A stretch of DNA of 52,504 nt from Opitutia bacterium (GTDB lineage: Bacteria > Verrucomicrobiota > Verrucomicrobiia > Opitutales > T3Sed10-336): positions 1 through 52,504 of the forward strand of contig PWMU01000075.1 of NCBI GenBank assembly GCA_003558065.1. Reading direction: 5' to 3'. The stretch's first letter is position 1, and every line of letters starts with the position of its first letter. The position numbers and the translations under genes were made by a program. This document shows, one piece after another, positions 4,323 through 22,006 of this stretch. Below the pieces are notes generated by a model. The model worked only from the letters and a program-made list of their open reading frames with translations. It was not told the origin of the DNA and did not search any database.

Positions 4323-6167
4323 TCAGTCGTTCCCGGAAGTCAGGACCCTGAAGACCCGGGGTTCCTCGTCGCGGGTTGAAAATATCATGGAGACGGGTTC
4401 TCCGTCACCCGATAGAGGCGCTGCAACCGGCGTCCATTCTTCCCTGTCCTCGGAGGATTCGACTAGGTAACGGACTCCTTCGATGGTATCAAACTCCACC
4501 TCCACCGCGGTATGAATGCGGACCGGCGGGAGTTCGGGGAATTCAAATTCCGCCGGTTCGGTAATAGCGGCGCCGATGGTGACGCCGATGTTGTCGAAAT
4601 CAAAGGATCTCAGGGGGGCATCGGAATCGATCTGGAACCGCAACAGATCGATCAGATTTCCCGCAGGCGCGTCGCTGTTCCTTTGATATTCACTAATCAG
4701 GTGCTGCCATTGCTGTCTGGCGTAATGGAACACCCAAAGCGAGGCGTACTCGGAGGAGAGGTCGTGGTCCTCGCCGTCGGGGCCCGTGTAAGTGATTGTG
4801 TCGGTTGAGTTATTGACGATCAGGTTCATCCGCACAGGCAGTTCGGGATCCGCGTAGAGCGGATCCCCGATTTCCTCGTCGCCGCGAACCCGTCTGGTGT
4901 TGTTTCTGAGACTCAGGATGTGCGCATCCTGGTTACCGGAGCGCATCCGGGCGTTCAGCCAGCGACCGCTGTCGTCGTCATGGAACCGGGTGATCACATC
5001 GAAGCTGAGCGTGGCCACTTCGAGGCCGGGGAACCTCGCGTCCATCGTGAAACCATTCATGCTTTCGTAGCGAACAAACTGGTTGTCCGTTCCGAACCCG
5101 AACACGTTGTCTTCGTCCTGCATGACCGTGACGATTCCGGCTCCGGGTTCGCTGGAAACATTCGCCCAAACGCCTCCGTCGCTGATTTGCCGTGGCAGGC
5201 CGCCGACCTCGTCGCCCTCGAAGTCGGCGAAAAATATAAAGTCGCCCTCGTCGGGCGGGGGCGGGCCGGCCGGCAGATCAGCAGGGTCGGCCGTGACCGC
5301 GACACCGAAGTGGGCATCGGGGGCGTCGGCGAGCAGTTCGTAACCGGAATTATCGAGCTGATAAGCGGACACGCCCTTGCCGCGCTCGGCGATCAACAGG
5401 TGGGTGCGCGAGGGACTGAACTTGAGCCCCAAAGGGCCGCCGATCCCCACCCTGAGCAGCGTGGACTCTCCGGTGTCAAAGTCGAACCGGTACAGGAACC
5501 CCTCTCCGAAGTTCGTGAAATACAAGTGACCGTCATCCGGGTTGTACGCCACTCCGTAGGTTTCACCGGCACCGGAAACGTCCAGAATCACATCGCCCTG
5601 CGACGTGCTGCCCGAAGGGAGCTGGGTCCGGTAGATGGTTGGGGATGCCGCGGTCATCCAAACCAACTCCTCGTCGTTGTCACCGCGAAGCGCCAGACCG
5701 GTGAACGCGCTTGCGAAATCGTCAAAAAGCACCTCCAGATTATCACCGGTTTCCAGGTCCGCCTGGAACAGCCCGTTGGAGTAGCAGGAAAAGTAGATTT
5801 TGTCATGGACCCCGGAGATCACCAGGTAGTGGGGCGCCGAAAACGAGCCGTCGTTCTCGACAAACAATTCCGCGTTGTTGCCGTCGCGGTCGGCGCGCCA
5901 GATGCCGCCGTGCTCGGAACTGCCGGCATGCTCGGTCCAATAGAGGTGGTCGTTGGTGACGACGATATCCACCGGGAGGCCTTCCATCACGGAGCCGTCA
6001 AACACTTCGGTGACATTGCCGCCGTCGATATCGGAGGCCATGATGTTGTAGGTCTCTTCGCCGTCCTGTTCGATTTCTTCCGTCCAGTAAAGGTCGTGGG
6101 CGGCAAGCGGCAGCACCGCCACACACCAGGCGGCTGCGAGAACGAGGGGGAAGTTTTTCGTTTTCAT
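4323..6167 (-). CDS. Secreted YWTD/SMP-30-like beta-propeller protein with jelly-roll and C-terminal ESS-D-W module
   Basis: Predicted exported protein of 614 residues. Residues 1-23 form a signal peptide (charged MKTK, hydrophobic stretch, cleavage near LPLAA). Residues 25-290 carry LYWTE-type repeats and GLALRGDN/GVAYNPDDGHLYFT blades, as in LDL-receptor YWTD or SMP-30/NHL six-bladed propellers. A beta-sandwich region follows (about 305-530: FFADFEGDEVGGLP ... VWANVSSEPG), resembling jelly-roll domains of Verrucomicrobia. The last 60 residues contain the module HTAVEVEFDT ... YLVESSEDREEWT ... FRVL, shared with the next upstream protein on this strand. No catalytic residues are recognisable; a binding or surface role is the safest reading. 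Same strand as the 281-residue protein that starts at 7077, 64 bases away, so the two may be cotranscribed. Confidence 0.75.
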   Translation of the reverse strand: MKTKNFPLVLAAAWCVAVLPLAAHDLYWTEEIEQDGEETYNIMASDIDGGNVTEVFDGSVMEGLPVDIVVTNDHLYWTEHAGSSEHGGIWRADRDGNNAELFVENDGSFSAPHYLVISGVHDKIYFSCYSNGLFQADLETGDNLEVLFDDFASAFTGLALRGDNDEELVWMTAASPTIYRTQLPSGSTSQGDVILDVSGAGETYGVAYNPDDGHLYFTNFGEGFLYRFDFDTGESTLLRVGIGGPLGLKFSPSRTHLLIAERGKGVSAYQLDNSGYELLADAPDAHFGVAVTADPADLPAGPPPPDEGDFIFFADFEGDEVGGLPRQISDGGVWANVSSEPGAGIVTVMQDEDNVFGFGTDNQFVRYESMNGFTMDARFPGLEVATLSFDVITRFHDDDSGRWLNARMRSGNQDAHILSLRNNTRRVRGDEEIGDPLYADPELPVRMNLIVNNSTDTITYTGPDGEDHDLSSEYASLWVFHYARQQWQHLISEYQRNSDAPAGNLIDLLRFQIDSDAPLRSFDFDNIGVTIGAAITEPAEFEFPELPPVRIHTAVEVEFDTIEGVRYLVESSEDREEWTPVAAPLSGDGEPVSMIFSTRDEEPRVFRVLTSGND

Positions 6168-6231: not shown

Positions 6232-7077
6232 CTAGTCGGCGGCAGTCGGGTTCAGTACACGGAAGAAGTGGCGATCCTGGCCGCGGGTTGAAAACATGAG
6301 CGACACATTGTCGCCGTCACCCGTGATGGGGTCTCCAGCCACGGTCCAGTCTTCCAGGTCCCGGGAGGATTCGATGAGATAATGAATTCCGGGGCGTGTA
6401 TCGAACTCTACCTCCACTGCGGTGTGAACCTGCATGTCGGGCGCTTCAGTCTCCAGGTCAAAGGTTTCAATCCGGAACGAATCCACCTCGATGGTATCGT
6501 GCACACTGTAAAATCCGGCCGATCCGTTTTCGAAGGGGTCTTCATCGAAGAACGAACCGTTGGCGAGGGTCTCTTCGCCGTCGCTGATCGACCACCAGAA
6601 GGTTCCGCGACCGTCGCTTTTAACGGTGAGCCGGTAAAACACGCTGTCGTCCAGAACCGGCAGGTCGCTCCGGTTCGTGTACAACGGGTCGAACGCCCCG
6701 TCGGCCCGTTTCATTGCCTGAAGCGAGCCGTTGTCGGCCCGGGCGCGAAAGAGGTAATAATTGTCCTCGTCCTGGACCTGAAAGGCGACGCCGTTCCAGT
6801 GATTCCTGCTCGACCAGCGGATTTCGCCGTCGAATTCGAAGGCACGGTCAATCGTTACCCCATCGTACGAAACGAGTCTCTCAAGGGGGGCCCCGGTCTG
6901 CACGGGACGCAGCAGATTGTTATTGATTTCCCAGTCGCCCACCCTTTCGGTCCAACCTTCCCCCAGATCGGTTCCGTCCGGGCGGTCGAAGTCGTCGGAA
7001 AAACCGTCTTGGGCGTGGGCGGCAACCGCCAGAAGCGAGGCCATCCCCGCGAGTACAAGTGAGTGAGGCGTGATCAT
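6232..7077 (-). CDS. Secreted jelly-roll (DUF1080/LamG-like) protein with C-terminal ESS-D-W module
   Basis: Predicted exported protein of 281 residues. I use the ATG at 7077 because it gives a good signal peptide (MITPHSLVLAGMASLLAVAAHA, then QDGFSDDF); the frame stays open to a GTG at 7197 but that extension hides the signal. Residues 25-205 look like a concanavalin/3-keto-disaccharide-hydrolase-type jelly roll (DDFDRPDGTDLGEGW, WEINNNLLRP, NGVAFQVQDEDNYYLFRA, GSAGFYSVHDTIEVDSFRIE). The last 60 residues repeat the module of the neighbouring downstream gene (HTAVEVEFDT, YLIESSRDLEDWT, FFRVL). Function is probably carbohydrate binding at the cell surface; no active site can be assigned. Confidence 0.75.
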   Translation of the reverse strand: MITPHSLVLAGMASLLAVAAHAQDGFSDDFDRPDGTDLGEGWTERVGDWEINNNLLRPVQTGAPLERLVSYDGVTIDRAFEFDGEIRWSSRNHWNGVAFQVQDEDNYYLFRARADNGSLQAMKRADGAFDPLYTNRSDLPVLDDSVFYRLTVKSDGRGTFWWSISDGEETLANGSFFDEDPFENGSAGFYSVHDTIEVDSFRIETFDLETEAPDMQVHTAVEVEFDTRPGIHYLIESSRDLEDWTVAGDPITGDGDNVSLMFSTRGQDRHFFRVLNPTAAD

Positions 7078-7522
7078 GGTTTTTTTGTGGGTTGATCCGG
7101 TTGTTGATAGGAATAAGAAGGCCGTTTCCCGGCCGTACCAGCGGGGTCCGGCCGGAGTCGCTTCTTGGGAAACAAGGAGCGAGCCGGAAGGCTCCACTGC
7201 TGCGTGCCAGGATACATATTATAGGAGGAGATAGGGAGGGGATAGAGTCTGGTTTGGGTTGTAACACCCGCCGAGACTCAAAAGTCAAAGCCAAGGGCTT
7301 AGATTGAATTTTCCAAAATAGCCACCAATTAATTGCGGAAATCTTTTATGTTTTTACGACGGTCGGGCGATTCAGAATTCCTCTACCTGGCCGTTGCTTT
7401 CCCCCGCTGCGTCGCGATTGCAGTGCGGGCACCTTCGATGTGCAGGAAGGTCTCGGGCCGTTGGGGGGAGGACGAATTTCATGCTGGAACCCAGAGGTGC
7501 GGGCGATAACCTGTTGAGAACA
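7078..7522. other. Divergent intergenic region, 445 bp
   Basis: Lies between the minus-strand jelly-roll gene and the plus-strand oxidoreductase fusion. A perfect minus-strand TATAAT occurs at 7218-7223, about 140 bases before the minus-strand ATG, but the sequence 17 bases upstream of it is a poor -35 box, so it is only a weak promoter candidate. The region around 7300-7355 is AT-rich and could hold plus-strand promoter elements. No RNA gene or additional protein-coding region was recognised. Confidence 0.4.
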
Positions 7523-9529
7523 ATGAAGACTGTTCGCTGGGGAATTCTTGCCACGGGGCGTATTGCGGGGGTTTTCGCCGAGGGGGTTCGCGCGTCGCGT
7601 ACCGGTGAACTTGCGGCCGTTGCCAGCCGCGATCCGTCGCCGGCCCGGAAGTTCGCAGAAAGATTCGGCATCGAGCGGGCGTACGGGAACTATGCGGACT
7701 TGCTGGGGGATGACCGGGTGAACGCCGTCTACATTGCGACGCCTCACCCGATGCATGCGGAGTTGGCGATTCGCGCCGCGGAATCCGGCAAGCACGTCCT
7801 TTGCGAAAAACCCGCGGGTCTCAATCACGCCGAGGCGATGGCCATGGTCGAGGCGGCCCGCGCGCGGGGTGTTTTCTTCATGGAGGCGTTCATGTACCGC
7901 TGCCATCCGCAGACCCGGCTATTGGCGGAACTGGTTTCGGGCGGACGGATTGGCGAGCCGAGGATGATCCAGGCTTCGTTCGGTTTTGACGCCCCGTTCG
8001 AGCCGGGCAGCCGTGTGTTCGCGCAGTCTCTGGGGGGAGGGGGGATTCTCGATGTCGGTTGCTATCCGGTATCGCTGGCGCGGCTGCTCGCGGGAGCGGC
8101 CGCCGGCAAGGCGTTTCTCGATCCAGTCGACGTTTCGGGTGCGGCGCACCTTGGGCCGGAGAGCCGCGTCGACGAATGGGCCGCGGCGACGCTGCGTTTT
8201 CCCGGCGGTATTCTGGCGCAGATTTCGACCGGGGTCCGGTTGCGGCAGGAGAATGCGGTGCGGGTGTTCGGGAGCGAGGGTTCGCTCCTGGTTCCCGATC
8301 CCTGGATGCCGGGCCGCGACGGGAGTCCGTGCCGGGTCGTTGTCTATTCGAAAGGCGATGACCCTCCGGAGGAGATTCCCGTTCCGACGGATCGCCCGTT
8401 GTATGCGCTGGAGGCCGATGCGTTTGCGGCCGGCGTGGCTGCGGGGAGTGCGCCCTGGCCGGCGATGAGTGTGGACGATACCCTGGGCAACATGCGAACG
8501 CTCGACTCCTGGCGCACGGCGGTCGGGTTGGAGTACGACAGCGAACGGCCGGAGGGCGCCGGCAGGAATACGGTGGCCGGCCGGCCGCTGGCGCGGGCCG
8601 GCGGAACGAGCATGCCGTACGGGCGGATAGCCGGCATGGACAAACCGGTTTCCCGGTTGGTTTTCGGTGTCGACAACCAGACCACGTTCCCGCATGCGGC
8701 CGTGATGTTCGACGATTTCTTCGAGCGGGGCGGCACCTGCTTCGATACCGCCCGTATTTACCGGGCCGGCCTGTGTGAAAAGATGATGGGATCCTGGTTG
8801 AGGGAGCGGGGGGTACGCGAGGAAATCGTTTTACTGGGAAAGGGAGCCCACACTCCGAACTGTTTTCCCGGGGCCATCGAGAGGGAGTTGGAGGAAAGCC
8901 TGGAGAGGTTGCAGACCGATTACCTCGATCTGTATCTCCTGCACCGCGACAATCCGGAGGTGCCCGTCGGGGAGTTTGTGGAGGCGCTCGACGAACTCCG
9001 GAAGGCCGGCCGGTTTCGTGCGTACGGCGTATCCAACTGGACGATGGCTCGGATCGATGAAGCCGAACGTTACGCTGCCGCCAGGGGGCTTCCCGGATTG
9101 TGTTGCGTCAGTAACCACTTCAGCCTCGCCCGCATGGTGGAGCCCCCCTGGCCCGGGTGTGTGGCGGCGACGGATCCCGGGTTCCGCAACTGGTTTCAAA
9201 AGAATCGATTGCCGCTTTTCGCCTGGTCGAGTCAGGCCCAGGGGTTTTTTGCGGGAAGGGCGTCCCGGGCCGGCGGTTCCGACGAGATGATCCTGCGGTG
9301 CTGGGGGATAGAGGAAAATTTCCGCCGACTGGACCGAGTCAACACGCTTGCGGACAGGCGCGGTCTGTCGCCGGCCTCCATTGGGTTGGCCTGGGTGTTG
9401 CATCAGCCGTTTCCCGTTTATCCGCTTATCGGCTGCCGCACGCTTGCCGAGACACGAACCTCGACCGAAGCGTTGACGGTGGAGCTTTCCCCGGACGAAG
9501 TAACCTGGCTTGATACCGGGGAGGAATAG
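7523..9529 (+). CDS. Gfo/Idh/MocA oxidoreductase fused to aldo/keto reductase
   Basis: A 668-residue two-enzyme fusion. Residues 1-345 are a Gfo/Idh/MocA dehydrogenase: Rossmann start VRWGILATGRIAGVF, the EKP motif at 95-97 (CEKPAG), and the substrate-domain segment GGGILDVGCYPVS. Residues from about 364 (MPYGRIAGMDKPVSRLVFG) form an aldo/keto reductase TIM barrel with the tetrad Asp408 and Tyr413 (FDTARIY), Lys440 (LGKGA) and His474 (LLHRDNP). Both parts use nicotinamide cofactors and act on sugars or polyols, so coupled oxidation/reduction of one sugar-derived substrate is plausible. The ATG at 7523 fits the Gfo/Idh/MocA N-terminus; a TTG at 7394 would add an unsupported 43 residues. No frameshift or stop separates the two domains. 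Confidence 0.9.
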   Translation: MKTVRWGILATGRIAGVFAEGVRASRTGELAAVASRDPSPARKFAERFGIERAYGNYADLLGDDRVNAVYIATPHPMHAELAIRAAESGKHVLCEKPAGLNHAEAMAMVEAARARGVFFMEAFMYRCHPQTRLLAELVSGGRIGEPRMIQASFGFDAPFEPGSRVFAQSLGGGGILDVGCYPVSLARLLAGAAAGKAFLDPVDVSGAAHLGPESRVDEWAAATLRFPGGILAQISTGVRLRQENAVRVFGSEGSLLVPDPWMPGRDGSPCRVVVYSKGDDPPEEIPVPTDRPLYALEADAFAAGVAAGSAPWPAMSVDDTLGNMRTLDSWRTAVGLEYDSERPEGAGRNTVAGRPLARAGGTSMPYGRIAGMDKPVSRLVFGVDNQTTFPHAAVMFDDFFERGGTCFDTARIYRAGLCEKMMGSWLRERGVREEIVLLGKGAHTPNCFPGAIERELEESLERLQTDYLDLYLLHRDNPEVPVGEFVEALDELRKAGRFRAYGVSNWTMARIDEAERYAAARGLPGLCCVSNHFSLARMVEPPWPGCVAATDPGFRNWFQKNRLPLFAWSSQAQGFFAGRASRAGGSDEMILRCWGIEENFRRLDRVNTLADRRGLSPASIGLAWVLHQPFPVYPLIGCRTLAETRTSTEALTVELSPDEVTWLDTGEE

Positions 9530-12085: not shown

Positions 12086-14749
12086 ATGAAACTCAATCGC
12101 AACCTCTGTTTTTCCGCGGCCTTTCTCATGCTGACCCTGCCGGGATTTCTGGGCGCCCAGCGTCTGGAGCCCGTTCTGTATGAGAAGTGGGAGGACGGGG
12201 ATCGTTCAAATCAGGCACTGCCTGAGTCGGCTGCCTGGTACTCATCGCAGGCCGGGAGCACGCTCCAGGCAGGTCACGGGAAAATGCGGCAGGAGCTTGC
12301 CGATTCAGCCATGACGATTGCCTGCTTCACCGATCCCGGCAAAACGGTGGAACTGGCTGTGGGGCATACCCTGCGGCTGGTCTATACCGTGTCGTTTCAT
12401 GATCGGAAAGATTCCGCCTTTTTCAGGATCGGGCTTTACGATACCTCCGGCCAGGACCGCGTTTCGAGCGACGCCATCGGGTATGGCAATGTGGCTTTCG
12501 AAGGGGGGCGCGGTTATATGGTGAACCTGGGCGGGCTCGACGCCGGAGATAGCGTGGATCTCCGCCGCCGGCGGACGGTAGCGGCCAGGGCCGGTCTCAT
12601 GAATACGACGGAACATTACTGGACCGCCGACGGTTCCGAGACCTCGCTTGGAGAAACGCTTTCCGACGATGTCCCTTATACGGGAACCTTTGAAATCATG
12701 CGGCTGGACCAGGACTCCGTCCGGGTGACGGCCTCGATGAGGGGGCCTGATGGGACCGTTTTTCAGACCCCTCCCTATGTGGACCGTTCGGACACCCTGC
12801 ATTTTGCTTTTGATACCGTTGGCTTCATGTCCGGGGCCGGCAATGGAGATGCCTTTACCCTCCATTCGGTCGCCGTCGGGGCGAGTCCCGAGGCGGCGGC
12901 CGGCATGGCCGTCACGTCCGCCGCCGGCGAAGAAGACTTCCCTGAAGTCGCACCGGTGGATTTGAATGAGATGTCGCCCGATCCGTTTTCGGACAAGGAT
13001 TTCAGGACCGGATGGATGACTCCGCAACCGCTTCCGTATTACCTGTACCACTTCGCGGCAGTGGCCAACAGCGTTGTGACCCATGGCGACCATCGCGGCT
13101 GGATCAACCGGCGCATCTGGCGATCCGCGGGGGAGTTTCGGAATCGGGATCCGCGCGTTATGGAGAGTGTTCTTTCCCTGACGTACTTTTACACCCGGGC
13201 CGAGCCGTGGAATCCCTATCATGGCGATCCCGCGCTGCGGAAACGCCTTGAGGCGGCGCTCCGGTACTACATCGATAGTCTCGGCGAGAACGGCCTGATG
13301 GAGCCGGCGACCCCCGATCAGCACGTGGGGTTCCGGCTCGCGAACACGATGTTTTTCACCAAGTTCATGGGGGAGACCCTGGTTCTGCTCCGTGACGGCC
13401 CGGCTATAGACGAGGAGCTTCATGCCGATCTGCTGGAGGCCCAGCGCCGCGCGCTGAAGTACGTTTTCACCTCGGACCTCGCCTTTATCCAGGGACGACA
13501 ATTCAGCAACCAATACGGCAATGTCTTTGGCGGCGCTTACGCTTACCTGTACCTGCAGGACGATCCCGGGATCGAGCGACTTCTGGAGCGCTCGATCGAT
13601 GAAGTCGTTCCCCATTTTCAAAGTCCGGCGGGTTATCTCTATGAAAACCACTCCGCGGATTTCGGTTATTCCCTGGGAACCCACCACAGTAATCTTCAAG
13701 CTGCCTGGCACTACGCCCAACTGGCCGGGAGAGATACGGCGTGGCTGGAGAAGGAGACCGAACATTGGGCGGATTGGTTGAGCTATAATGCCGTGCCCGA
13801 TCCCGATTTTTCCGAATTCACTCTCAACCGGGCCATCGAGTCCCGCCAGAATCGGTGGGGCTTTACCCGGGCCAACGCCCCGTTCGCCGAGCACGTTCCC
13901 GCCCTCCGCGCTTTCGTCGCTTCCAGGGATGAAGTCCGCGAAGAAGAAGAGCGAAGTCGTGCTGATCTGACGGACTCCTGGCCTCGGGTGGAGGCGCTGG
14001 GCAGCGGCTTTAACAGTTTCAGTCCCTACGCTTTTCTCCACCGGCACCATTTCGAGTGGTACCCGAGCGAGGCTGAACGGGAGTCGGCGCGACAGGAATT
14101 GCCCTATTTTGCCCGGGACCGGTTCGTTCACCAACGGGTGGACGACCGCCTGCCAATGGAAGTGACCTTCGTGAACCGTTCCGGTTACTACGCCGCCTTC
14201 AACGCCGGCGAACAGAGAAGCAGGGTGCAGACTTTCGGTCTGGGCCTGCTGTGGCATCCCGAGGCGGGTGCGGCCCTGCAAAGCCAGACCCGCATGGCGG
14301 AAGCCGCCTGGGGGGTGGTGCTCGAAGGCGGGGATCGGGTGGCCGAAGCCGACGGGGCCCTGAAGGTGCGCTACTACCTCGACGGCGAGGAGATTTCCCC
14401 GAAATCGGGTGCCAACGATCTCCCGGATGGGGATCTGGAGATCCATTACCGGCTCGGCGACAGGGGAGAGAAATTCCTGCGCTTCGAAGACGAACGGATT
14501 CTCGTGGCGGTGAATCCGGGCGGCGAATTCATCGAACAGATCCCGTTTCTCATCGATTCCTCAACCGAGCCGGTGGTGGACGGGGAATCCATCCGGATCC
14601 CGCGCGGCGAGCGGGAACTCGTCATCAGGCCGGAAGGGCAGATCGATCAGTCGATTAGCTTGACCGATAGGAACGTCGGAGACAGCACGGTCGGGGTGGT
14701 CAATCTCAAGGGCTTTCGTCGCTTCACCTACACGCTGCAATTCGAGTAA
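12086..14749 (+). CDS. Large secreted protein: jelly-roll plus alpha/alpha-toroid, putative polysaccharide lyase or hydrolase
   Basis: Predicted exported protein of 887 residues; signal peptide MKLNRNLCFSAAFLMLTLPGFLGA. Residues 25-290 form a beta-sandwich of a type common in Verrucomicrobia (LYEKWEDGDRSNQALPESAA WYSS at its start). Residues about 310-620 are helix-rich with repeating aromatic/acidic patterns, as in the alpha/alpha toroids of polysaccharide lyases and unsaturated glucuronyl hydrolases (YFYTRAEPWNPYHGDPALRK, QYGNVFGGAYAYLYL, YENHSADFGYSLGTHHSNLQ). The C-terminal 270 residues are beta-rich. The conserved His, Tyr and Asn in the middle are compatible with a lyase, but I cannot assign a family. 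The same start motif occurs in the orphan fragment at 25783-25965. Confidence 0.7.
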   Translation: MKLNRNLCFSAAFLMLTLPGFLGAQRLEPVLYEKWEDGDRSNQALPESAAWYSSQAGSTLQAGHGKMRQELADSAMTIACFTDPGKTVELAVGHTLRLVYTVSFHDRKDSAFFRIGLYDTSGQDRVSSDAIGYGNVAFEGGRGYMVNLGGLDAGDSVDLRRRRTVAARAGLMNTTEHYWTADGSETSLGETLSDDVPYTGTFEIMRLDQDSVRVTASMRGPDGTVFQTPPYVDRSDTLHFAFDTVGFMSGAGNGDAFTLHSVAVGASPEAAAGMAVTSAAGEEDFPEVAPVDLNEMSPDPFSDKDFRTGWMTPQPLPYYLYHFAAVANSVVTHGDHRGWINRRIWRSAGEFRNRDPRVMESVLSLTYFYTRAEPWNPYHGDPALRKRLEAALRYYIDSLGENGLMEPATPDQHVGFRLANTMFFTKFMGETLVLLRDGPAIDEELHADLLEAQRRALKYVFTSDLAFIQGRQFSNQYGNVFGGAYAYLYLQDDPGIERLLERSIDEVVPHFQSPAGYLYENHSADFGYSLGTHHSNLQAAWHYAQLAGRDTAWLEKETEHWADWLSYNAVPDPDFSEFTLNRAIESRQNRWGFTRANAPFAEHVPALRAFVASRDEVREEEERSRADLTDSWPRVEALGSGFNSFSPYAFLHRHHFEWYPSEAERESARQELPYFARDRFVHQRVDDRLPMEVTFVNRSGYYAAFNAGEQRSRVQTFGLGLLWHPEAGAALQSQTRMAEAAWGVVLEGGDRVAEADGALKVRYYLDGEEISPKSGANDLPDGDLEIHYRLGDRGEKFLRFEDERILVAVNPGGEFIEQIPFLIDSSTEPVVDGESIRIPRGERELVIRPEGQIDQSISLTDRNVGDSTVGVVNLKGFRRFTYTLQFE

Positions 14750-14803: not shown

Positions 14804-15901
14804 ATGAAATCTTCGAACCTTTACCGAAACCCGGCGGTGGCGTCCGATGCTCCCTCCGAAAAACGAATCCTTGTTATCTCCTGCCTGATGCTTATTGTGC
14901 TCGGAATCATGTGGGGCACCAAGCCGGCCGGTGGGGCTGATGCGTTGAAGGACTGGGAATACGTGGAGCCGAGCAGCGAGTTTTATTTTGAAGTTCAACG
15001 CTTCGAAGCCAATCCCGTCATTCATTCACGGATGCACGGGCTGGTAGGGGACGATGGCAAAAACATCAACGGCCCGTCGCTGATCCGCGTGCCGGAGTGG
15101 ATCGAGGATCCGTTGGGCAGGTATTACCTGTATTTTGCTCACCATCACGGTGATTTCATCCGGCTGGCCTATGCGGACTCGCTTGAAGGACCGTGGAAAA
15201 TTCATCACGGCGGCGTGTTGCCGCTGGAGGAGACTCCGAGTTACGACGGGGTTCGTAGGGATCACGTTGCCAGCCCCGATGTGCATGTCGACCACGAAGA
15301 GAAACGTATCCGCATGTATTACCATGCCGATCCGCGGCCGGGCACGGACACTCAGTATCAGGCAACCTACGTCGCGGTTTCCGGAGATGGACTCGATTTT
15401 GACCCGCTCGAGGAAATTCTCGGGATGTTTTACTTCCGTGTCTTCGAGCGCGACGGATGGCACTACGCGCTGGCGAAGTACATCAACGACGGGGGTGTGA
15501 TCTACCGCTCGCGGGATCCGTTATCCGGCTTTGAGGAAGGGCCGCGGATTCTGCCCCGGGTTCGTCACATGGCATTGTGGGAGCACGACGACGTGCTTTA
15601 CGTGTTCTTTTCACGCGGGGAGGACAAGCCCGAACACCTGATGGTTTCGCGCGTCGAGAACCTCGATGACGACTGGGAGGACTGGACCTTTACGGAGCCG
15701 CAGACAGTTTTGAAGCCGGAGAAGGATTATGAAGGAGTCAACGCGCCGATCGAACGTTCCCGTTTCGGCGCAACCTACGATTTCGTGCACCAATTGAGGG
15801 ATCCGGCGATCTACGAGGAGGACGGCCGGGTGTATCTCCTATATTCGGCGGCGGGGGAATCGTCCATCGCGATCGCCGAACTGTTTTTCAAGGGAGACTG
15901 A
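14804..15901 (+). CDS. Secreted/anchored GH43-like five-bladed propeller protein
   Basis: About 365 residues. A hydrophobic helix at about 24-41 (ILVISCLMLIVLGIMW) acts as a signal anchor or signal peptide. The rest resembles the five-bladed propeller of GH43/GH32/GH130-like glycosidases: NGPSLIRVPEWIEDPLGRYY, YFAHHHGDFIRLAYADSLEG, ASPDVHVDHEEKRIRMYYH and RDPAIYEEDGRVYLLYSAAG each read as one blade. I prefer the ATG at 14804 to a GTG at 14762. The stop lies inside the 3' end of the convergent carboxypeptidase gene (14-bp tail-to-tail overlap). Substrate is unknown; arabinan, xylan or related glycans are usual for the fold. Confidence 0.75.
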   Translation: MKSSNLYRNPAVASDAPSEKRILVISCLMLIVLGIMWGTKPAGGADALKDWEYVEPSSEFYFEVQRFEANPVIHSRMHGLVGDDGKNINGPSLIRVPEWIEDPLGRYYLYFAHHHGDFIRLAYADSLEGPWKIHHGGVLPLEETPSYDGVRRDHVASPDVHVDHEEKRIRMYYHADPRPGTDTQYQATYVAVSGDGLDFDPLEEILGMFYFRVFERDGWHYALAKYINDGGVIYRSRDPLSGFEEGPRILPRVRHMALWEHDDVLYVFFSRGEDKPEHLMVSRVENLDDDWEDWTFTEPQTVLKPEKDYEGVNAPIERSRFGATYDFVHQLRDPAIYEEDGRVYLLYSAAGESSIAIAELFFKGD

Positions 15902-18437
15902 GCATCTCCGCGTTCACGCGGATAAAGAAAGATCGGGCTTCCGGGAGGGGTGTTTCGATTTCGACGCGCTCCATCCATCCGTCGGACTGGAGGACCTCGG
16001 TGGAATCAATTGTCGCCGGGGTCCATTCGGTGAGGTTGGGAGACACCTCGAGATTCAAAACGACGTCCGGGAGGTTGAGGGCCCGCTGATACCGGACATG
16101 GGCGACTTGCCCGTCCGGGTCCGGAGTCAGCAGACGGGGAAGATCCGCGGGAGTGGCGCTCATGGGGTTAAGAGCCATCGCGTAAGCCAGGAGATTGGGC
16201 AGATCGAGCGGCCCGTTCCGGTCTCCGGGTCCCTGCCGGTCCTGGGGAAAGGTTTCCCGCGGCGGCCAGGTATTGAAAGTCAACTCTTGAACCGAAAGGT
16301 CCACCTCCGCTGTCGACGTTGCCCCGCAGGGAGTACTCACGTTCACGGTGTAGAGCCCGGAATCGTCCATGGCGACCCGGTCCAGGGTGAAGGTCGATTC
16401 GTTGGCATCGGGAATAATCTCGCCTTCCCGTTGCCATTCGTAGGTGAAGGGGCCGGGGCCTTCGGCCTCGACGGTAGCGCTCCAGGAACTTCCCGCCGTC
16501 ACGAGGGTTTCCGCAACCAGAGCCACCTCAATATCGCAGGAATCGGGAGCTGTCTCTCCGCCGACTCCGACGCCCAGGAAGGCCCAATCGTTCACCGAAT
16601 TGGACTGGAATCCGGCGAATCCCACCGAGCCGCTCTGGTGGTTGTTGTCCGTCAGAGTGACCTGCCATTCGGAGGGCTCCTCTTGGCCGTCTTGCCAGAT
16701 TTTCGCCATGAGCCCGTTCCCCTCGCGACGAAAGCGCACCCAATACCAGGTATCCTGTTCCGGTTCGAAATTCGTGCTGCCGATGGTGCTGAAGCTGCCG
16801 TCCACGTAGCGGTTGATCCGGATGGAGGATTGATCGACCCGCACGTCCACGTAGTAGGCGTTTTCGTTCCCGGCTTGCCCCGACACGTGCAGCGGGAGTT
16901 GGAAGAGGGTGTTGGAAGATTCGGAACGCACTTTCGTGACCACCTCAACATCGCCCGATACGATGCCGGGCCGGTTCCATACCAGCGAGCGGCGGCCACC
17001 GGTGTTGTCGACGGTGTGGCGGAGGAGGCGCGGGTCGTCCTGGACAGCCCAGTCGCTCTCGGTCCACGGCATCGACCAATCCGCGGGCGCCTCGCCGGGT
17101 TCATCCGTCAGGAAATCGGTAAAGAACCGCGCCGGTGGGGAGGAGGGCGGAGGAGGTTCGGGCGGCTCCAGAGAGCCCGGATCCGAACAGTCCTCAAGTG
17201 CCTTCCCCTCAACGAGCGGGTGGGAAGCACGCGGGTCAAGCAGCAGGGGGATGACCGTCATTTGCGGCTGGGCCATCGCTATCAAAAACGATCCCTCGGC
17301 AACCTCTTCGGCTTCCAGGGAAAAATACTCGACCTGCCGGTCAATGACCTCGAGCTGCCACGGGTTGAGCAGGTAACCGCACGGTGCCGGGTCCAGTACC
17401 TCGTCGGACGAAGGTTCCTCCCAGTCGGCTCCGCCGAGATAGAACGGTCGCGATTGGTTGGCCCCGGCTTCCGTTGCTCGGGTCCGGGATCCTTCAATGG
17501 TCGCGGCCACGTCGGCACCGTATTCGCGGTGAAAGCGAAAAATTTCATGGATCGTCCGCATTTGGAGATCGACCCGTGCGGCGGGAGTGGCGTTGAAAGT
17601 CTCGATCAGGATTCCCAGACTGTGGCGCAGTCCGATTGCGTTGCGGAGTATGCGTTCGTCGCCGCCGCCCGCTCCTCCCGGTGAACCGTAAATCCCGGTG
17701 GAGTACCCGGCTGCTTCGATGGCGGGGAAGACATGGTCCTCCACCAGGGACTGGCTCAGTTCGCGAAGGGCTGTATCCACGTTGAGGTTGCGCGCCCAGG
17801 ACAGTTCCAGGCGCGGGGTCTGGTCGGGATTGTTGGGCGTGCTAGGTCCTTCATGGGCGTCGATGACGATTTCCGGGCGAAAGTCCCGAAAAATACCAGC
17901 CATGACCCGGCCCTCGGGGGTCGCCAGGAGAAGATGGTCCCGGTTGAGGTCGACACCGCCGGCGTTGCCCCGCGTGTCCGCCACCCTCCCGTCGGGGTTG
18001 GAAGTGGGCAGAAAGAGCAGCGTGGTCTCGCTCAATTGGTCGATCAGATCCGGATCGTCGGTGAATGCGAAGTCGCGCAGGAGTTTCAGCGCCGCTTCCC
18101 GCCCTGCCGGCTCGTTCCCGTGCTGGGCACCGATCACGAGGACGGAGCGGCCCGTGGAGGCCTCCTCCGCGGTCGGCGCCGCCGGATAACCCAGCCGCAC
18201 CAGGTGAAGCGGCCGTCCCTGCACGGACTCCCCGACAGGGTCGTAAGCCATCCGGGGCGATCCCGCCGCCACGGCTTCCAGAAAAGACAGTTCCTGTTCG
18301 TGGGTGGTGTGATCCTCGCCGTCGCTCTGTTCGAAGCCCGTTGTCGGCGGATCTTCCGCCAGTGTGCCGATCGTGCGGTTCTCCGGAGACGCCCCCGCAG
18401 GCAGAGCGGACACCAGGAACGCTATCAGGACCGTCAT
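15888..18437 (-). CDS. Secreted M14 zinc carboxypeptidase with jelly-roll, Ig-like and C-terminal module
   Basis: About 849 residues from the ATG at 18437 (MTVLIAFLVSALPAGA, a short signal peptide). Other possible starts lie upstream, e.g. ATG at 18620; the start is uncertain. The M14 domain spans about 45-330: zinc ligands H106 and E109 (QHGNE), H195 (DAHEG), substrate motif NPDGR (148-151), DLNRD, and likely general base E278 (LIETFNA). Then come a Pro-rich linker (PPPPSSPP), a jelly-roll (SDWAVQDDPRLLRHT ... GSVGFAGFQSNS), an Ig-like domain (YEWQREGEIIP ... MDDSGLYTVNVS) and a Verrucomicrobia-type tail (LEVSPNLTEWT ... SFFIRV). It probably trims peptides or peptidoglycan outside the cell. 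Confidence 0.85.
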   Translation of the reverse strand: MTVLIAFLVSALPAGASPENRTIGTLAEDPPTTGFEQSDGEDHTTHEQELSFLEAVAAGSPRMAYDPVGESVQGRPLHLVRLGYPAAPTAEEASTGRSVLVIGAQHGNEPAGREAALKLLRDFAFTDDPDLIDQLSETTLLFLPTSNPDGRVADTRGNAGGVDLNRDHLLLATPEGRVMAGIFRDFRPEIVIDAHEGPSTPNNPDQTPRLELSWARNLNVDTALRELSQSLVEDHVFPAIEAAGYSTGIYGSPGGAGGGDERILRNAIGLRHSLGILIETFNATPAARVDLQMRTIHEIFRFHREYGADVAATIEGSRTRATEAGANQSRPFYLGGADWEEPSSDEVLDPAPCGYLLNPWQLEVIDRQVEYFSLEAEEVAEGSFLIAMAQPQMTVIPLLLDPRASHPLVEGKALEDCSDPGSLEPPEPPPPSSPPARFFTDFLTDEPGEAPADWSMPWTESDWAVQDDPRLLRHTVDNTGGRRSLVWNRPGIVSGDVEVVTKVRSESSNTLFQLPLHVSGQAGNENAYYVDVRVDQSSIRINRYVDGSFSTIGSTNFEPEQDTWYWVRFRREGNGLMAKIWQDGQEEPSEWQVTLTDNNHQSGSVGFAGFQSNSVNDWAFLGVGVGGETAPDSCDIEVALVAETLVTAGSSWSATVEAEGPGPFTYEWQREGEIIPDANESTFTLDRVAMDDSGLYTVNVSTPCGATSTAEVDLSVQELTFNTWPPRETFPQDRQGPGDRNGPLDLPNLLAYAMALNPMSATPADLPRLLTPDPDGQVAHVRYQRALNLPDVVLNLEVSPNLTEWTPATIDSTEVLQSDGWMERVEIETPLPEARSFFIRVNAEMLSLP

Positions 18438-18700
18438 TGTCCGGCACGGCAAGAGAACGAAAGGTTTCCCGAATGGCTCGCCCGGGAAAAAGGCACGCCG
18501 GCCTGTTTGAACTCCCGGCGGGGCGGTGCTCTGGAGACGGAAAGCCTTGAATAGGCCTTTGCGCCTGGTTCTGGTTTTGGGGCGTTCCGGCCGCTTGGGT
18601 GATTCGGGTGCAATAGGCATCGTTTTCGATGCAGTCTGGCCGACTCCTGGATCCGCTGCAAGATCGTTCTTGCCCTGGTGATTCGGCGCGGAGAAGGCGG

Positions 18701-21700
18701 CTATTGCGCGCCTCCCATTCGAATGCGCGGATCGACCCACATCAACAGCAGGTCGCTCACGAGAGTTCCGAAAACAGTGAGCAGGCTGAGCACCATCAGC
18801 ATCGATCCCGCCAGGTACATATCCTGGGTCATCAAGGCACTCAGAAGCAGGGGCCCTACGGTCGGGAGACTCAGGACGATCGCCACGATGGCTCCCCCGG
18901 AAATGAGCTGGGGAAAAATCTGGCCGATGCCCGAAATGAAGGGATTGAGCGCCAGGCGGACCGGATACTTGAACAGGAGTTTCATGGGACGGACCCCTTT
19001 TGCCCGGGCGGTCACTACGTAAGGCTTGCGCAGTTCGTCGAGCAGGTTGCCCCGCATTACGCGGATCATCCAGGCGGTGCCGGCGGTGCCGATCACTACG
19101 ACCGGAACCCAGATGTGTTGGAGCAGGTCGACGAATTTGCCCCAGGTCCACTCGGGCTGGGCGGCGTACTCCGGCGAGAACAGACCGCTGACCTGGGCGT
19201 CGAACAGGGCGGCGCTGATGTACATGAGGATCAGCGCGAGCAGAAAATTCGGGATACACATCCCGATGAAACCGATCAGCGTAAAAACGTAGTCCCCGAT
19301 CGAATACTGGCGTACCGCGGAATAGATGCCAATGGGGATAGCCATGGCCCAGGTGAAAATGACCGTGAAGAGCGAGATCACAAAAGTCAGAAGAATCCTG
19401 TCCCCGACCACGTCGTTCACCGGCCGCGAGTCCTCCATTGACCGTCCCAGACTCCCCTGTAGCAGGCCCCGGTCGCCGGCGTCGAAGGTTGCGAACCACG
19501 GCAATCCCAGCCAGCGCAGGTACCGCAGGCTCATGGGATCCTCCAGGTGGAAAAGTTCTTCCAGCTCCCGGATTTCCTGAATCGCCCCCAGGTCGCCTTC
19601 CATCTCCAGCTCAATGATCCGGGCCTCGATGAAATCTCCCGGAGGGAGCTGGATGATAATGAACGTGACCAGTGAAATCACGAACAGGGTGGGAACCAGG
19701 ATGAGGCACCGGCGGCCGATGAACGGATGGCGTACGGCTACCAGCAGCCCGCCAAGCAGGAGAATGCCGTAGATCAGGTAACGCACCATCGATCCGACCG
19801 CTTCGCCCACTCGCGATTCCTCCTCGTCGACCTGCCGCCCGTTGTCGAGGGTCAGGCTTGGATCGGGCCGGATTTCCACCATGGCCCGCTTCATTTGGGC
19901 GATGGCTCCCGGGGAATCATAGGGTGTCTCGAAGAAGTAGTTCTCGATTCCCGCATTGGAAGGAGTATTGAAAATGTGCCCGACGCTCGCCTTGCGCGGA
20001 ACATTCCGGAACCCCTTCTGCACAATCACCAGATCAGGGGGCGGAGTACTGATATTGATGCTCCAGAGATTGTCGGCCGCGATCTCAAGGGCCTCGTTGA
20101 AGATACTGACCTGTTCCTCGAGGTCCTCGACCCCCCGGGCTTCATCGAGGATTTCCATCGATCGCCGGAACGGGTGGTCCGCGGGCGGTTCGATCGCCAA
20201 CGGCCGCTCGTCGGCTTCGGGATGCCCGTAGAGGCCGCCCAGTTGATACCAGCTCGCAAAGCCCGGAGCAAAGAACGAGTGCAGGGTAACGGGAACGAAA
20301 CTTCGCGGCTCGACCAGCGGATAAAATTCGCTCGCTCCCGACCAGACGGTCAAATCATGCTCCAGGCCGGATTGCAAACGCTGCCACAGGCTGCGCGCCC
20401 GTTCGTGCAGGACCACCCGCACCCCCACTTCCCGCCAGTACGCTGTGAGGAATTCGGAAGGCCCCGTGCCGGTGTAATCCGTGACATTCAGGTTGAAGGC
20501 CATGCGCGTTCCGTCGGGAAACATCCGGTACCCTTCCGCATCGCGCCGGTCCAACCCGATGTCATCCAACAATCCGTTCGCGCGCTCCGGATCGTAGTCG
20601 GTGAAGCTGCCGAACAACCTGGGATTGTGGAATACCGACTCCGGACCGGGATCGATCTGCGCCGGCTCGGTCTGGCCGTCGTATTCGGCCGCGATGATCT
20701 CCTCCCGGTTGATGGCGAGCGAGAGGGCCTGGCGGAATTCCTTCTTGTTCAAATAATCGTGTTTCCACCGTGTTTCCGGGCGGTCGGGATCCACCCGCCG
20801 GTTCAAATTCGGGAAAATGCAGAATATCGATCGGTACGCGGGAAACCAGTGGTAAACGTCGTAATCGTTGCGATCCCGCTGATCCATGTAGAGGGTGTAA
20901 TCATCGTAGTGGATGTGCCGCAGTTGCATCGTGATGTCGCCGGCGGCCGCCGTGACCGAGATCATGTCCTGGGAGCGAAGATCCATCAGAATCCGGTCCA
21001 CGTAAGGCAGCTGGTTCCCCTCCGAATCGACCGCGAAGTAGTAGGGATTGCGCACGAACTCGTACGGCGGCGTTCCCTGGTAGCCGCGCGGAACCCAGGC
21101 CCACATCCGCGGATGCTCCGGATTGCGGTTGCCCTTCAGACGGAAGTAAGCCGCGCGCGGACTCGGCACTCCCTGAACCTCGACCATCGCCTCGATCAAT
21201 CCCGGATCGCCCGCCTCGGGATGAAAAGGTTTCAGGTAATGCTCGGGGGCCCAGAGCGTATGTTTTGCCAGCGCCTCTGCGAACAGCCCGTTGGGATGAG
21301 GGAAGGTGAAACGCACGGTGTATCGGTCGATCTTTTCGATGTCGCCCAGCTCGCCCCGGATGGTCATGTAATGCGGGCGCTGGTCGAAATGCTGAACTTC
21401 CTTTTCCCACCAGTACAGGATGTCGCGCGCGGTAAACGGATGCCCGTCCGACCACTTCACGCCCTCCCGGAGGTAAAGCGTGTACTCCCGGCGGTCGTCG
21501 GAAACTTCCCAATCCTTTGCCAGGTGCGGTCGAATCGGGTAGCCCAGCGGCGACCACCGCAAGAGCTGCCCGCCCGACAGTCGCCACGAAATGATCCCGA
21601 CATCGCCTTCGGAAGTCGCCACACGGTACCAGGTCCCCCCGTACTTTCCGATACCTTCGGGACCTTCCGTCACCGCGGGCTGCGGTCCGACCCGTTCCGC

Positions 21701-22006
21701 CACGGGTGGGAGCCGTCCTTCCTCCACCAACTCCGCCAGGAACGGAGATTCACCTTTTGGATACCACGCCCCGGCTTCCCCTTCGCCGTAGTCCACGTCC
21801 CGGTGCAGTACCGTTACGTCATCCGGGTCGAAGGAGGTGTCGCGGTCCCTTTCCACCGACTCCACCTCTTCAGGATCGTATTCCGGCAGCACGGCGCGAA
21901 TATCGGGCCGCAGGAACGCCCCGAATACATAAAGCAGGGCGACAAGGGACAATCCCGCACCGAGAACCAGCAAAAGATAAATACCAAAACCTTTCAGCCT
22001 GAGCAT
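18701..22006 (-). CDS. ABC transporter fusion: family-5 solute-binding domain plus DppB-like permease
   Basis: A single 1101-residue protein. An N-terminal membrane helix (about 7-32) is followed by a large SBP_bac_5 (peptide/oligosaccharide-binding) domain, roughly 90-700, with family motifs GKYGGTWYR, AKDWEVSDDRREYTLYLREG, GVKWSDGHPFTARDILYWW and a C-terminal INREEIIAAEY-type segment. A second helix at about 735-755 leads into a DppB-type permease (about 760-1101): LILVPTLFVISLVTFIIIQL, PPGDF, LLQGSLGRSMED, and the EAA-like loop region GGAIVAIVLSLPTVGPLLL. Normally these are separate polypeptides. No second permease or ATPase lies in the window, so the rest of the importer must be elsewhere or lost. 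Divergent from the rhamnosidase gene, with about 236 bases between starts. Confidence 0.9.
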   Translation of the reverse strand: MLRLKGFGIYLLLVLGAGLSLVALLYVFGAFLRPDIRAVLPEYDPEEVESVERDRDTSFDPDDVTVLHRDVDYGEGEAGAWYPKGESPFLAELVEEGRLPPVAERVGPQPAVTEGPEGIGKYGGTWYRVATSEGDVGIISWRLSGGQLLRWSPLGYPIRPHLAKDWEVSDDRREYTLYLREGVKWSDGHPFTARDILYWWEKEVQHFDQRPHYMTIRGELGDIEKIDRYTVRFTFPHPNGLFAEALAKHTLWAPEHYLKPFHPEAGDPGLIEAMVEVQGVPSPRAAYFRLKGNRNPEHPRMWAWVPRGYQGTPPYEFVRNPYYFAVDSEGNQLPYVDRILMDLRSQDMISVTAAAGDITMQLRHIHYDDYTLYMDQRDRNDYDVYHWFPAYRSIFCIFPNLNRRVDPDRPETRWKHDYLNKKEFRQALSLAINREEIIAAEYDGQTEPAQIDPGPESVFHNPRLFGSFTDYDPERANGLLDDIGLDRRDAEGYRMFPDGTRMAFNLNVTDYTGTGPSEFLTAYWREVGVRVVLHERARSLWQRLQSGLEHDLTVWSGASEFYPLVEPRSFVPVTLHSFFAPGFASWYQLGGLYGHPEADERPLAIEPPADHPFRRSMEILDEARGVEDLEEQVSIFNEALEIAADNLWSINISTPPPDLVIVQKGFRNVPRKASVGHIFNTPSNAGIENYFFETPYDSPGAIAQMKRAMVEIRPDPSLTLDNGRQVDEEESRVGEAVGSMVRYLIYGILLLGGLLVAVRHPFIGRRCLILVPTLFVISLVTFIIIQLPPGDFIEARIIELEMEGDLGAIQEIRELEELFHLEDPMSLRYLRWLGLPWFATFDAGDRGLLQGSLGRSMEDSRPVNDVVGDRILLTFVISLFTVIFTWAMAIPIGIYSAVRQYSIGDYVFTLIGFIGMCIPNFLLALILMYISAALFDAQVSGLFSPEYAAQPEWTWGKFVDLLQHIWVPVVVIGTAGTAWMIRVMRGNLLDELRKPYVVTARAKGVRPMKLLFKYPVRLALNPFISGIGQIFPQLISGGAIVAIVLSLPTVGPLLLSALMTQDMYLAGSMLMVLSLLTVFGTLVSDLLLMWVDPRIRMGGAQ

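Follow-up and report, generated by a model that had tools for sequence, protein, structure and literature searches.

A fused Gfo/Idh/MocA-aldo/keto reductase protein of an Opitutia bacterium, a candidate bifunctional oxidoreductase for carbohydrate catabolism

We analysed a window of 52,504 nucleotides from an Opitutia bacterium of the Verrucomicrobiota (contig PWMU01000075.1 of assembly GCA_003558065.1, positions 1 to 52,504), in which one gene encodes a Gfo/Idh/MocA oxidoreductase joined to an aldo/keto reductase (AKR) in a single chain (Table 1). The reading frame is also open upstream of the ATG, to a TTG at 7394, but the start sites of aligned homologues agree with the ATG. Pfam placed the first half in the Gfo/Idh/MocA family (PF01408, 87.8 bits against a cut-off of 24; PF22725, 78.2 bits against 27) and the second in the aldo/keto reductase superfamily (PF00248, 170.1 bits against 24), and the latter also matched solved AKR structures with Z scores of ~34. 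The fusion protein scored under the curated cut-off of all 16 NCBIfam equivalog models listed, and therefore neither half is a known equivalog; for myo-inositol 2-dehydrogenase IolG (TIGR04380) it reached 105 bits against a cut-off of 355. AlphaFold2 modelled the whole chain from 46 aligned sequences with a mean pLDDT of 95.8 and a pTM of 0.93, and the pLDDT stayed at ~87-89 across linker residues 341-370. The high pTM of this two-domain chain suggests that the two halves have a defined mutual orientation. A promoter scan gave no promoter-like site, and the terminator-like sites found did not clearly exceed those of shuffled sequences. The initial annotation had described two complete oxidoreductase domains in the one 668-aa chain, while allowing that catalytic residues might be lost in one half or that the fusion might be a local sequencing error. 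The Pfam domains are full, the window protein keeps K96, D177 and Y181 in the Gfo half and D408, Y413, K440 and H474 in the AKR half, and the same fusion is present in other genomes at 44-56% identity. The fusion protein is confirmed as real and conserved.

Table 1. Features of the fusion gene; positions are those of the window.
Feature	Positions	Strand	Basis
Gfo/Idh/MocA-AKR fusion gene, 668 aa (start ATG 7523, stop 9529)	7523..9529	+	ORF, translation, Pfam, AlphaFold2
Gfo/Idh/MocA NAD(P)-binding Rossmann domain, residues 5-122	7535..7888	+	PF01408, E 1.1e-24
Arg36, end of beta-strand 2, NADP-type position	7628..7630	+	Census and alignment
E95-K96-P97 motif, catalytic-type Lys96 (KijD10 Lys102)	7805..7813	+	Census and alignment
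Gfo/Idh/MocA C-terminal domain (GFO_IDH_MocA_C3), residues 132-255	7916..8287	+	PF22725, E 7e-22
D177-Y181 active-site motif (Tyr181 is KijD10 Tyr186)	8051..8065	+	Census and alignment
Interdomain linker, ~residues 341-366	8543..8620	+	Between Pfam domains; little regular secondary structure
Aldo/keto reductase domain, residues 384-664	8672..9514	+	PF00248 (Aldo_ket_red), E 7.2e-50
AKR tetrad Asp408 and Tyr413	8744..8761	+	D408 in 44/44, Y413 in 42/44 fused rows
AKR tetrad Lys440	8840..8842	+	43/44 fused rows
AKR tetrad His474	8942..8944	+	43/44 fused rows
Glu643, aligned with DepB Gln294	9449..9451	+	Glu in 42/44 fused and 11/14 split rows

The Gfo/Idh/MocA family is defined by the lysine of an EKP motif together with a D...Y/H active-site motif, and the fusion carries both, as E95-K96-P97 and as D177 with Y181. 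Residues were counted in 44 fused proteins and 14 split pairs, some fused rows being unscorable at Gfo positions; one of the loci, L038, runs off its contig and is missing the N-terminal portion of its Gfo half. E95, K96, P97, D177, Y181 and H78 were each found in all 43 scorable fused rows (of 44). Mutants of KijD10 at K102, the counterpart of K96, are named in PDB titles. NADP-type Gfo enzymes typically carry an Arg where beta-strand 2 ends, and we take position 36 of the fusion to be this cofactor position. R36 was present in 42/42 scorable fused rows (of 44) and in 14/14 split pairs, and it aligns with the Arg of dihydrodiol dehydrogenase and of KijD10.

The hallmark of the aldo/keto reductase superfamily is an Asp-Tyr-Lys-His catalytic tetrad, which the fusion has as D408, Y413, K440 and H474. 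Around this active site R475, N505, W506 and W568 are near-invariant among the fused rows. One fused protein, at L036 (1477-3477, - strand), has the Tyr, Lys and His of the tetrad changed and the Gfo residues retained, and its AKR half is a possible pseudoenzyme; another, at L055, carries Y413H. In DepB, an AKR of deoxynivalenol epimerisation, Lys217, Arg290 and Gln294 touch the 2'-phosphate end of NADPH, and the substitution Q294E abolishes the preference for NADPH, with a Kd ratio (NADPH/NADH) of 0.17 before and 1.07 after the exchange (PMC9427786). The fusion has Glu643 at the position of Gln294. Arg was found at position 639, which aligns with DepB R290, in 33/44 fused rows, and at position 579, aligned by hand with DepB K217, in 28/44. 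On this alignment it is possible that the AKR half uses NADH. The cofactor signatures of the two halves, R36 on one side and E643 on the other, may thus differ; Glu643 would speak against one common NADP(H) pool, and cofactor sharing between the halves appears doubtful.

The distribution of the fusion, a check that the initial annotation had proposed, was surveyed in genomes and plasmids. A full-length fusion was found in 28 of 387 sampled genomes of the window's phylum, its own genome included (E <= 1e-45), leaving out a partial copy (G201), a copy in two frames (G142) and a pair of adjacent genes (G339). In the rhizobial order of Mesorhizobium amorphae the fusion was present in 36 of 297 genomes, leaving out a partial copy (G593) and two genomes with the AKR only (G625 and G465); four of the 36 have one flagged in-frame stop each. 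Among 72,556 plasmid records, 191 matched the fusion at E <= 1e-90, and none of these matches spanned less than 80% of the query (Rhizobium 123, Sinorhizobium 63, Phyllobacterium 3, Pararhizobium 1, Neorhizobium 1). The best 80 loci of a scan of genome contigs comprised 14 fused forms, 13 with adjacent genes, one with a weak adjacent AKR (L085) and 52 with no nearby AKR match above 70 bits; the fused forms included Chloroflexota, Armatimonadota, alphaproteobacteria, SAR86 and Evansella. Within the window's genus the protein occurs in one of two other genomes, split into two pieces on two contigs. Geminisphaera colitermitum TAV2, the genome of L055, holds a second copy as two overlapping pieces, probably frameshifted (G393:C117:5878-7956). 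We considered, and rejected, that the genome of the window might contain another fusion, since the 767-aa open frame on contig C137 translates as two adjacent genes with a stop between them. At this locus (L043:2129-4408) a distant Gfo gene is followed after 18 bases by an AKR gene and preceded by a divergent LacI-like regulator; the two superfamilies are thus paired once more in this genome, here as separate genes.

The protein is already in the databases, mostly as 'aldo/keto reductase' and also as 'oxidoreductase protein' or 'Gfo/Idh/MocA family oxidoreductase'. The rhizobial 667-aa 'aldo/keto reductase' entries WP_011649798.1 (R. johnstonii 3841) and WP_011427608.1 (R. etli CFN 42) are the same fusion, the R. 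etli protein being 49% identical to the window protein across 99% of its length. Its function has no description in the open literature searched, a body outside which most subscription journals lie.

Adjacent Gfo and AKR genes occur in the order Gfo-AKR in Bacillota and in the order AKR-Gfo, with overlapping reading frames, in Chloroflexota. We built maximum-likelihood trees of each half; from trees and census we left out L057 (on the same contig as the G245 locus), L041 (a near-copy of L040) and the longer duplicate copies of loci, L044-L051, L132-L147 and L149-L151. The fused proteins did not form one clade in the tree of either half, and for the Gfo half an AU test rejected a tree that kept the 44 fused rows together, apart from the 14 split ones (p 2.3e-42); fusion or fission therefore happened repeatedly. 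Fused Evansella vedderi was sister to split Gracilibacillus in both trees (support 95 and 83), with 73 and 75% identity between its halves and the operonic split pair of Gracilibacillus. At the junction Evansella reads through and keeps a Met; the two genes of Gracilibacillus are separated there by a stop codon, a stretch resembling a Shine-Dalgarno sequence and a start codon. This comparison of sequences shows an apparently recent fusion by loss of a stop codon within an operonic pair. It is the sole fusion, at the threshold used, among 35 genomes of its family, and it could in principle be a base-calling error in that one genome. The adjacent genes of G339, from the window's order, and of the alphaproteobacterial locus L068 were placed among the fused rows in the trees, which suggests that these split genes arose by fission. 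The distances of the two halves correlate (Mantel r 0.82, with 0 of 1000 shuffles as high), as is expected for any fused or linked pair.

Either half is also found without the other. An AKR was sought in 25 genomes from the phylum whose highly similar match was to the Gfo half only. In 24 of them no AKR reached E <= 1e-30, and in the remaining one the match had just 33% identity. With the Gfo half lacking any close AKR in at least 24 of 25 genomes, its chemistry does not require the AKR half. For the AKR half, G625 and G465 of the rhizobial order carry it by itself (E <= 1e-80). An AKR of 56-57% identity also occurs in four Evansella relatives, where the flanking DNA covered contained no Gfo. 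Both halves are thus probably functional enzymes on their own.

Rhizobial copies mostly form the final gene of a CUT1 sugar-ABC-transporter operon, and such a transporter lay beside the fusion in nine of the ten annotated regions viewed. In the tenth, from S. medicae, the fusion stands by itself next to a divergent HTH regulator, and an SMP-30 gene lies ~6 kb away. R. tumorigenes has a GH42 beta-galactosidase between the transporter and the fusion. In R. johnstonii 3841 the fusion gene is RL_RS27245, and its operon encodes the solute-binding protein WP_011649802.1. Regulators near the fusion are of the AraC (HTH) or ROK type, and ABC permease genes recur in the neighbourhood of the fusion or the gene pair in alphaproteobacteria, in Chloroflexota and in some Bacillota. 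The Verrucomicrobiota loci scanned had no conserved catabolic operon, their neighbours being housekeeping, unrelated or unclassified genes. The window copy has no CUT1-type transporter operon directly around it; it is surrounded by genes for a phosphodiester glycosidase, a beta-lactamase-like protein and two unclassified divergent genes, with an alpha-L-rhamnosidase further off.

A conserved third enzyme beside the pair was considered and rejected, since the neighbours of ~270 aa differ in family (TIM barrel of the AP_endonuc_2 type, esterase, short-chain dehydrogenase, methyltransferase, epimerase); in Phyllobacterium a TIM-barrel gene follows the fusion. In the window's order a gene for an unclassified membrane protein directly follows both fused and Gfo-only forms. 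This protein of ~405 aa (L047:10731-11966) has relatives in eight other loci (a cluster of nine, of which eight were aligned), and the member at L048 had no Pfam or NCBIfam match. GH4 glycosidases work via a 3-keto intermediate, and a gene of this glycosidase family 4 lies immediately upstream of a fused gene at L145:8977-12679 (- strand). Near the fusion in the window are long frames with no Pfam match at E <= 0.001, at 4326-6167 (-), 6235-7197 (-) and 12086-14746 (+); the frame at 4326-6167 gave weak matches only (E ~0.08-0.11), for instance to SMP-30/gluconolactonase-like repeats. Elsewhere in the window, a frame of 1101 aa (18704-22006, -) joins a family-5 solute-binding protein (residues 158-559) to an ABC permease domain (889-1096), and a 615-aa protein (43457-45304, +) combines a ThuA domain with an alginate lyase domain. 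A zinc carboxypeptidase (M14) with weak Ig-like matches in its C-terminal part is encoded at 15891-19499 (-); its frame overlaps that of the binding protein-permease by ~800 bases, so its real start is probably downstream.

We regard two-step redox chemistry on one imported sugar as the likeliest function of the fusion. The protein, which is probably soluble and cytoplasmic, would be a bifunctional oxidoreductase for carbohydrate catabolism that performs redox-neutral chemistry in series on one sugar, a reading we put forward tentatively and somewhat below even chances. The Gfo half, of the dihydrodiol dehydrogenase/KijD10/aldose-aldose oxidoreductase type, would turn one sugar hydroxyl into a carbonyl using Lys96, Asp177 and Tyr181, probably with NADP+ as the oxidant, and the AKR half, with Asp408, Tyr413, Lys440 and His474, would then work on the same molecule. 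The simplest step for the AKR half would be to restore the hydroxyl by reducing the carbonyl, now in the opposite configuration. Overall this would be a redox-neutral inversion of a rare sugar into a metabolisable one, similar to that of DepA and DepB on deoxynivalenol but in one chain. Such an inversion through a keto intermediate is plausible, and strict epimerisation is less likely than redox-neutral series chemistry as such. That both halves share one substrate is quite probable; that they run in opposite directions falls just short of an even chance; and that the outcome is inversion instead of other two-step chemistry is rather doubtful. In favour of series chemistry on one sugar are the intact catalytic sets, the high-confidence one-chain model and the pairing across phyla, together with the recurrent fusion and fission, the CUT1 operons and the presence of DepB among the best AKR matches. 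Against it are the halves found alone, the lack of a transporter operon around the window copy, Glu643 and the tetrad loss at L036. The initial annotation had read the fusion as a strong hint that both domains act on the same substrate. This holds insofar as an intact pair from different superfamilies is adjacent or fused in several phyla and lies in sugar-transport operons, but to conclude from the fusion that the two share an obligate redox cycle is too strong, because Gfo-only (24/25) and AKR-only genomes exist. The cofactor recycling or redox-neutral epimerisation that the annotation proposed as a natural function is a hypothesis.

The same two activities could act in sequence without inverting any centre. 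Here one half would act as an aldose dehydrogenase, which might for instance form a lactone at C1, and the other half would reduce another carbonyl; the outcome would be a dismutation or a two-step conversion like those of glucose-fructose or aldose-aldose oxidoreductases. Aldose-aldose (Z 39.4) and glucose-fructose (Z 38.3) oxidoreductases do rank with the closest fold matches to the Gfo half, and the GH42 enzyme in the R. tumorigenes operon would release an aldose. The Gfo family also includes D-xylose dehydrogenase. An NADP+-specific enzyme with this activity has been reported (PMC2228372). No lactonase is conserved beside the fusion, however, the one SMP-30 gene being that of S. medicae, and we consider this non-inverting chemistry unlikely. 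It is also rather unlikely that two broad reductases, scavenging carbonyls or keto-sugars, were joined for co-expression alone. Such a fusion of convenience would fit the occurrence of either half alone and the lack of a conserved operon in the Verrucomicrobiota loci scanned, but it accounts poorly for a pairing in two gene orders and in distant phyla with repeated fusion or fission, for the sugar-transport operons around the rhizobial fusion and for the near-invariant surroundings of the AKR active site.

An NADP-type Gfo half and an NADH-tolerant AKR half could instead exchange hydride through their substrate and so link the pools of NADP and NAD. This is suggested by R36, which every scorable row has, fused or split, and by Glu643, the residue that abolishes the NADPH preference of DepB when introduced at Gln294 (PMC9427786). 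R639 and the hand-aligned R579 are mostly retained, however, and could still hold NADPH, which leaves this exchange improbable. More of a long shot still is the full combination, a redox epimerase in one polypeptide with NADP+ in the Gfo half and NADH in the AKR half, which would be a sugar-driven transhydrogenase fused more than once. A sequencing or assembly artefact, finally, is refuted for the window gene and has next to no chance of being the explanation. The single Evansella fusion could in principle be one, but nothing suggests it for the window copy, and the counts in 28 genomes of the phylum, 36 of the rhizobial order and 191 plasmid records argue against it.

If the halves do act in series on one sugar, the fusion would be a self-contained converter of rare sugars, common both in Verrucomicrobiota and on the megaplasmids of rhizobia, and hidden in the databases behind the name of one of its halves. 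Because the transporter operon is present in R. johnstonii 3841 and S. meliloti, discovery of the substrate is feasible with laboratory strains. Fused, adjacent, freshly fused and single forms together offer a good case for what fusion adds to a two-step pathway.

We compared the fusion with known systems by fold and by sequence. In a combined fold comparison, where three of the 50 matches listed concern the AKR half and the remainder the Gfo half, the Gfo half (model residues 3-341) matched dimeric dihydrodiol dehydrogenase (2o48, Z 43.0), KijD10 (3rc1, Z 40.4), aldose-aldose oxidoreductase (5a02, Z 39.4) and glucose-fructose oxidoreductase (Z 38.3). The AKR half, among the matches listed, resembled 7utf (Z 33.9), Tas (Z 33.8) and DepB (Z 33.6). 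2o48, 3rc1 and 5a02 share with the fusion the Gfo fold and the active-site Lys and Tyr (K102/Y186 in KijD10, K96/Y181 in the fusion), and 2o48 and KijD10 also share the Arg at the end of beta-strand 2. In contrast to the fusion, all three are stand-alone enzymes without an AKR half, at 24-31% identity to it; KijD10 is a sugar 3-ketoreductase. Rhizobial fusions end a CUT1 ABC transporter operon, whereas the window copy does not. The best PDB sequence match of the AKR half is DepB (8hwn), which is also among its best fold matches but is only 26% identical and has Gln294 where the fusion has Glu643. The partner of DepB is DepA, a separate and unrelated dehydrogenase, and DepA/DepB, with a face-inverting AKR acting after a dehydrogenase, is the closest precedent for such a combination. 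The opening dehydrogenase of the levoglucosan pathway is of the Gfo type. DepB reduces 3-keto-DON to 3-epi-DON (PMC9427786), and the levoglucosan pathway LgdA-LgdB1-LgdB2-LgdC is redox-neutral via a 3-keto sugar, a dehydrogenase opening it and a reductase closing it (PMC7676230). The latter differs from the fusion in having four separate proteins with elimination and hydration steps in between, and its abstract names no AKR, but it provides a precedent for the redox-neutral conversion of a sugar through a keto intermediate (PMC7676230).
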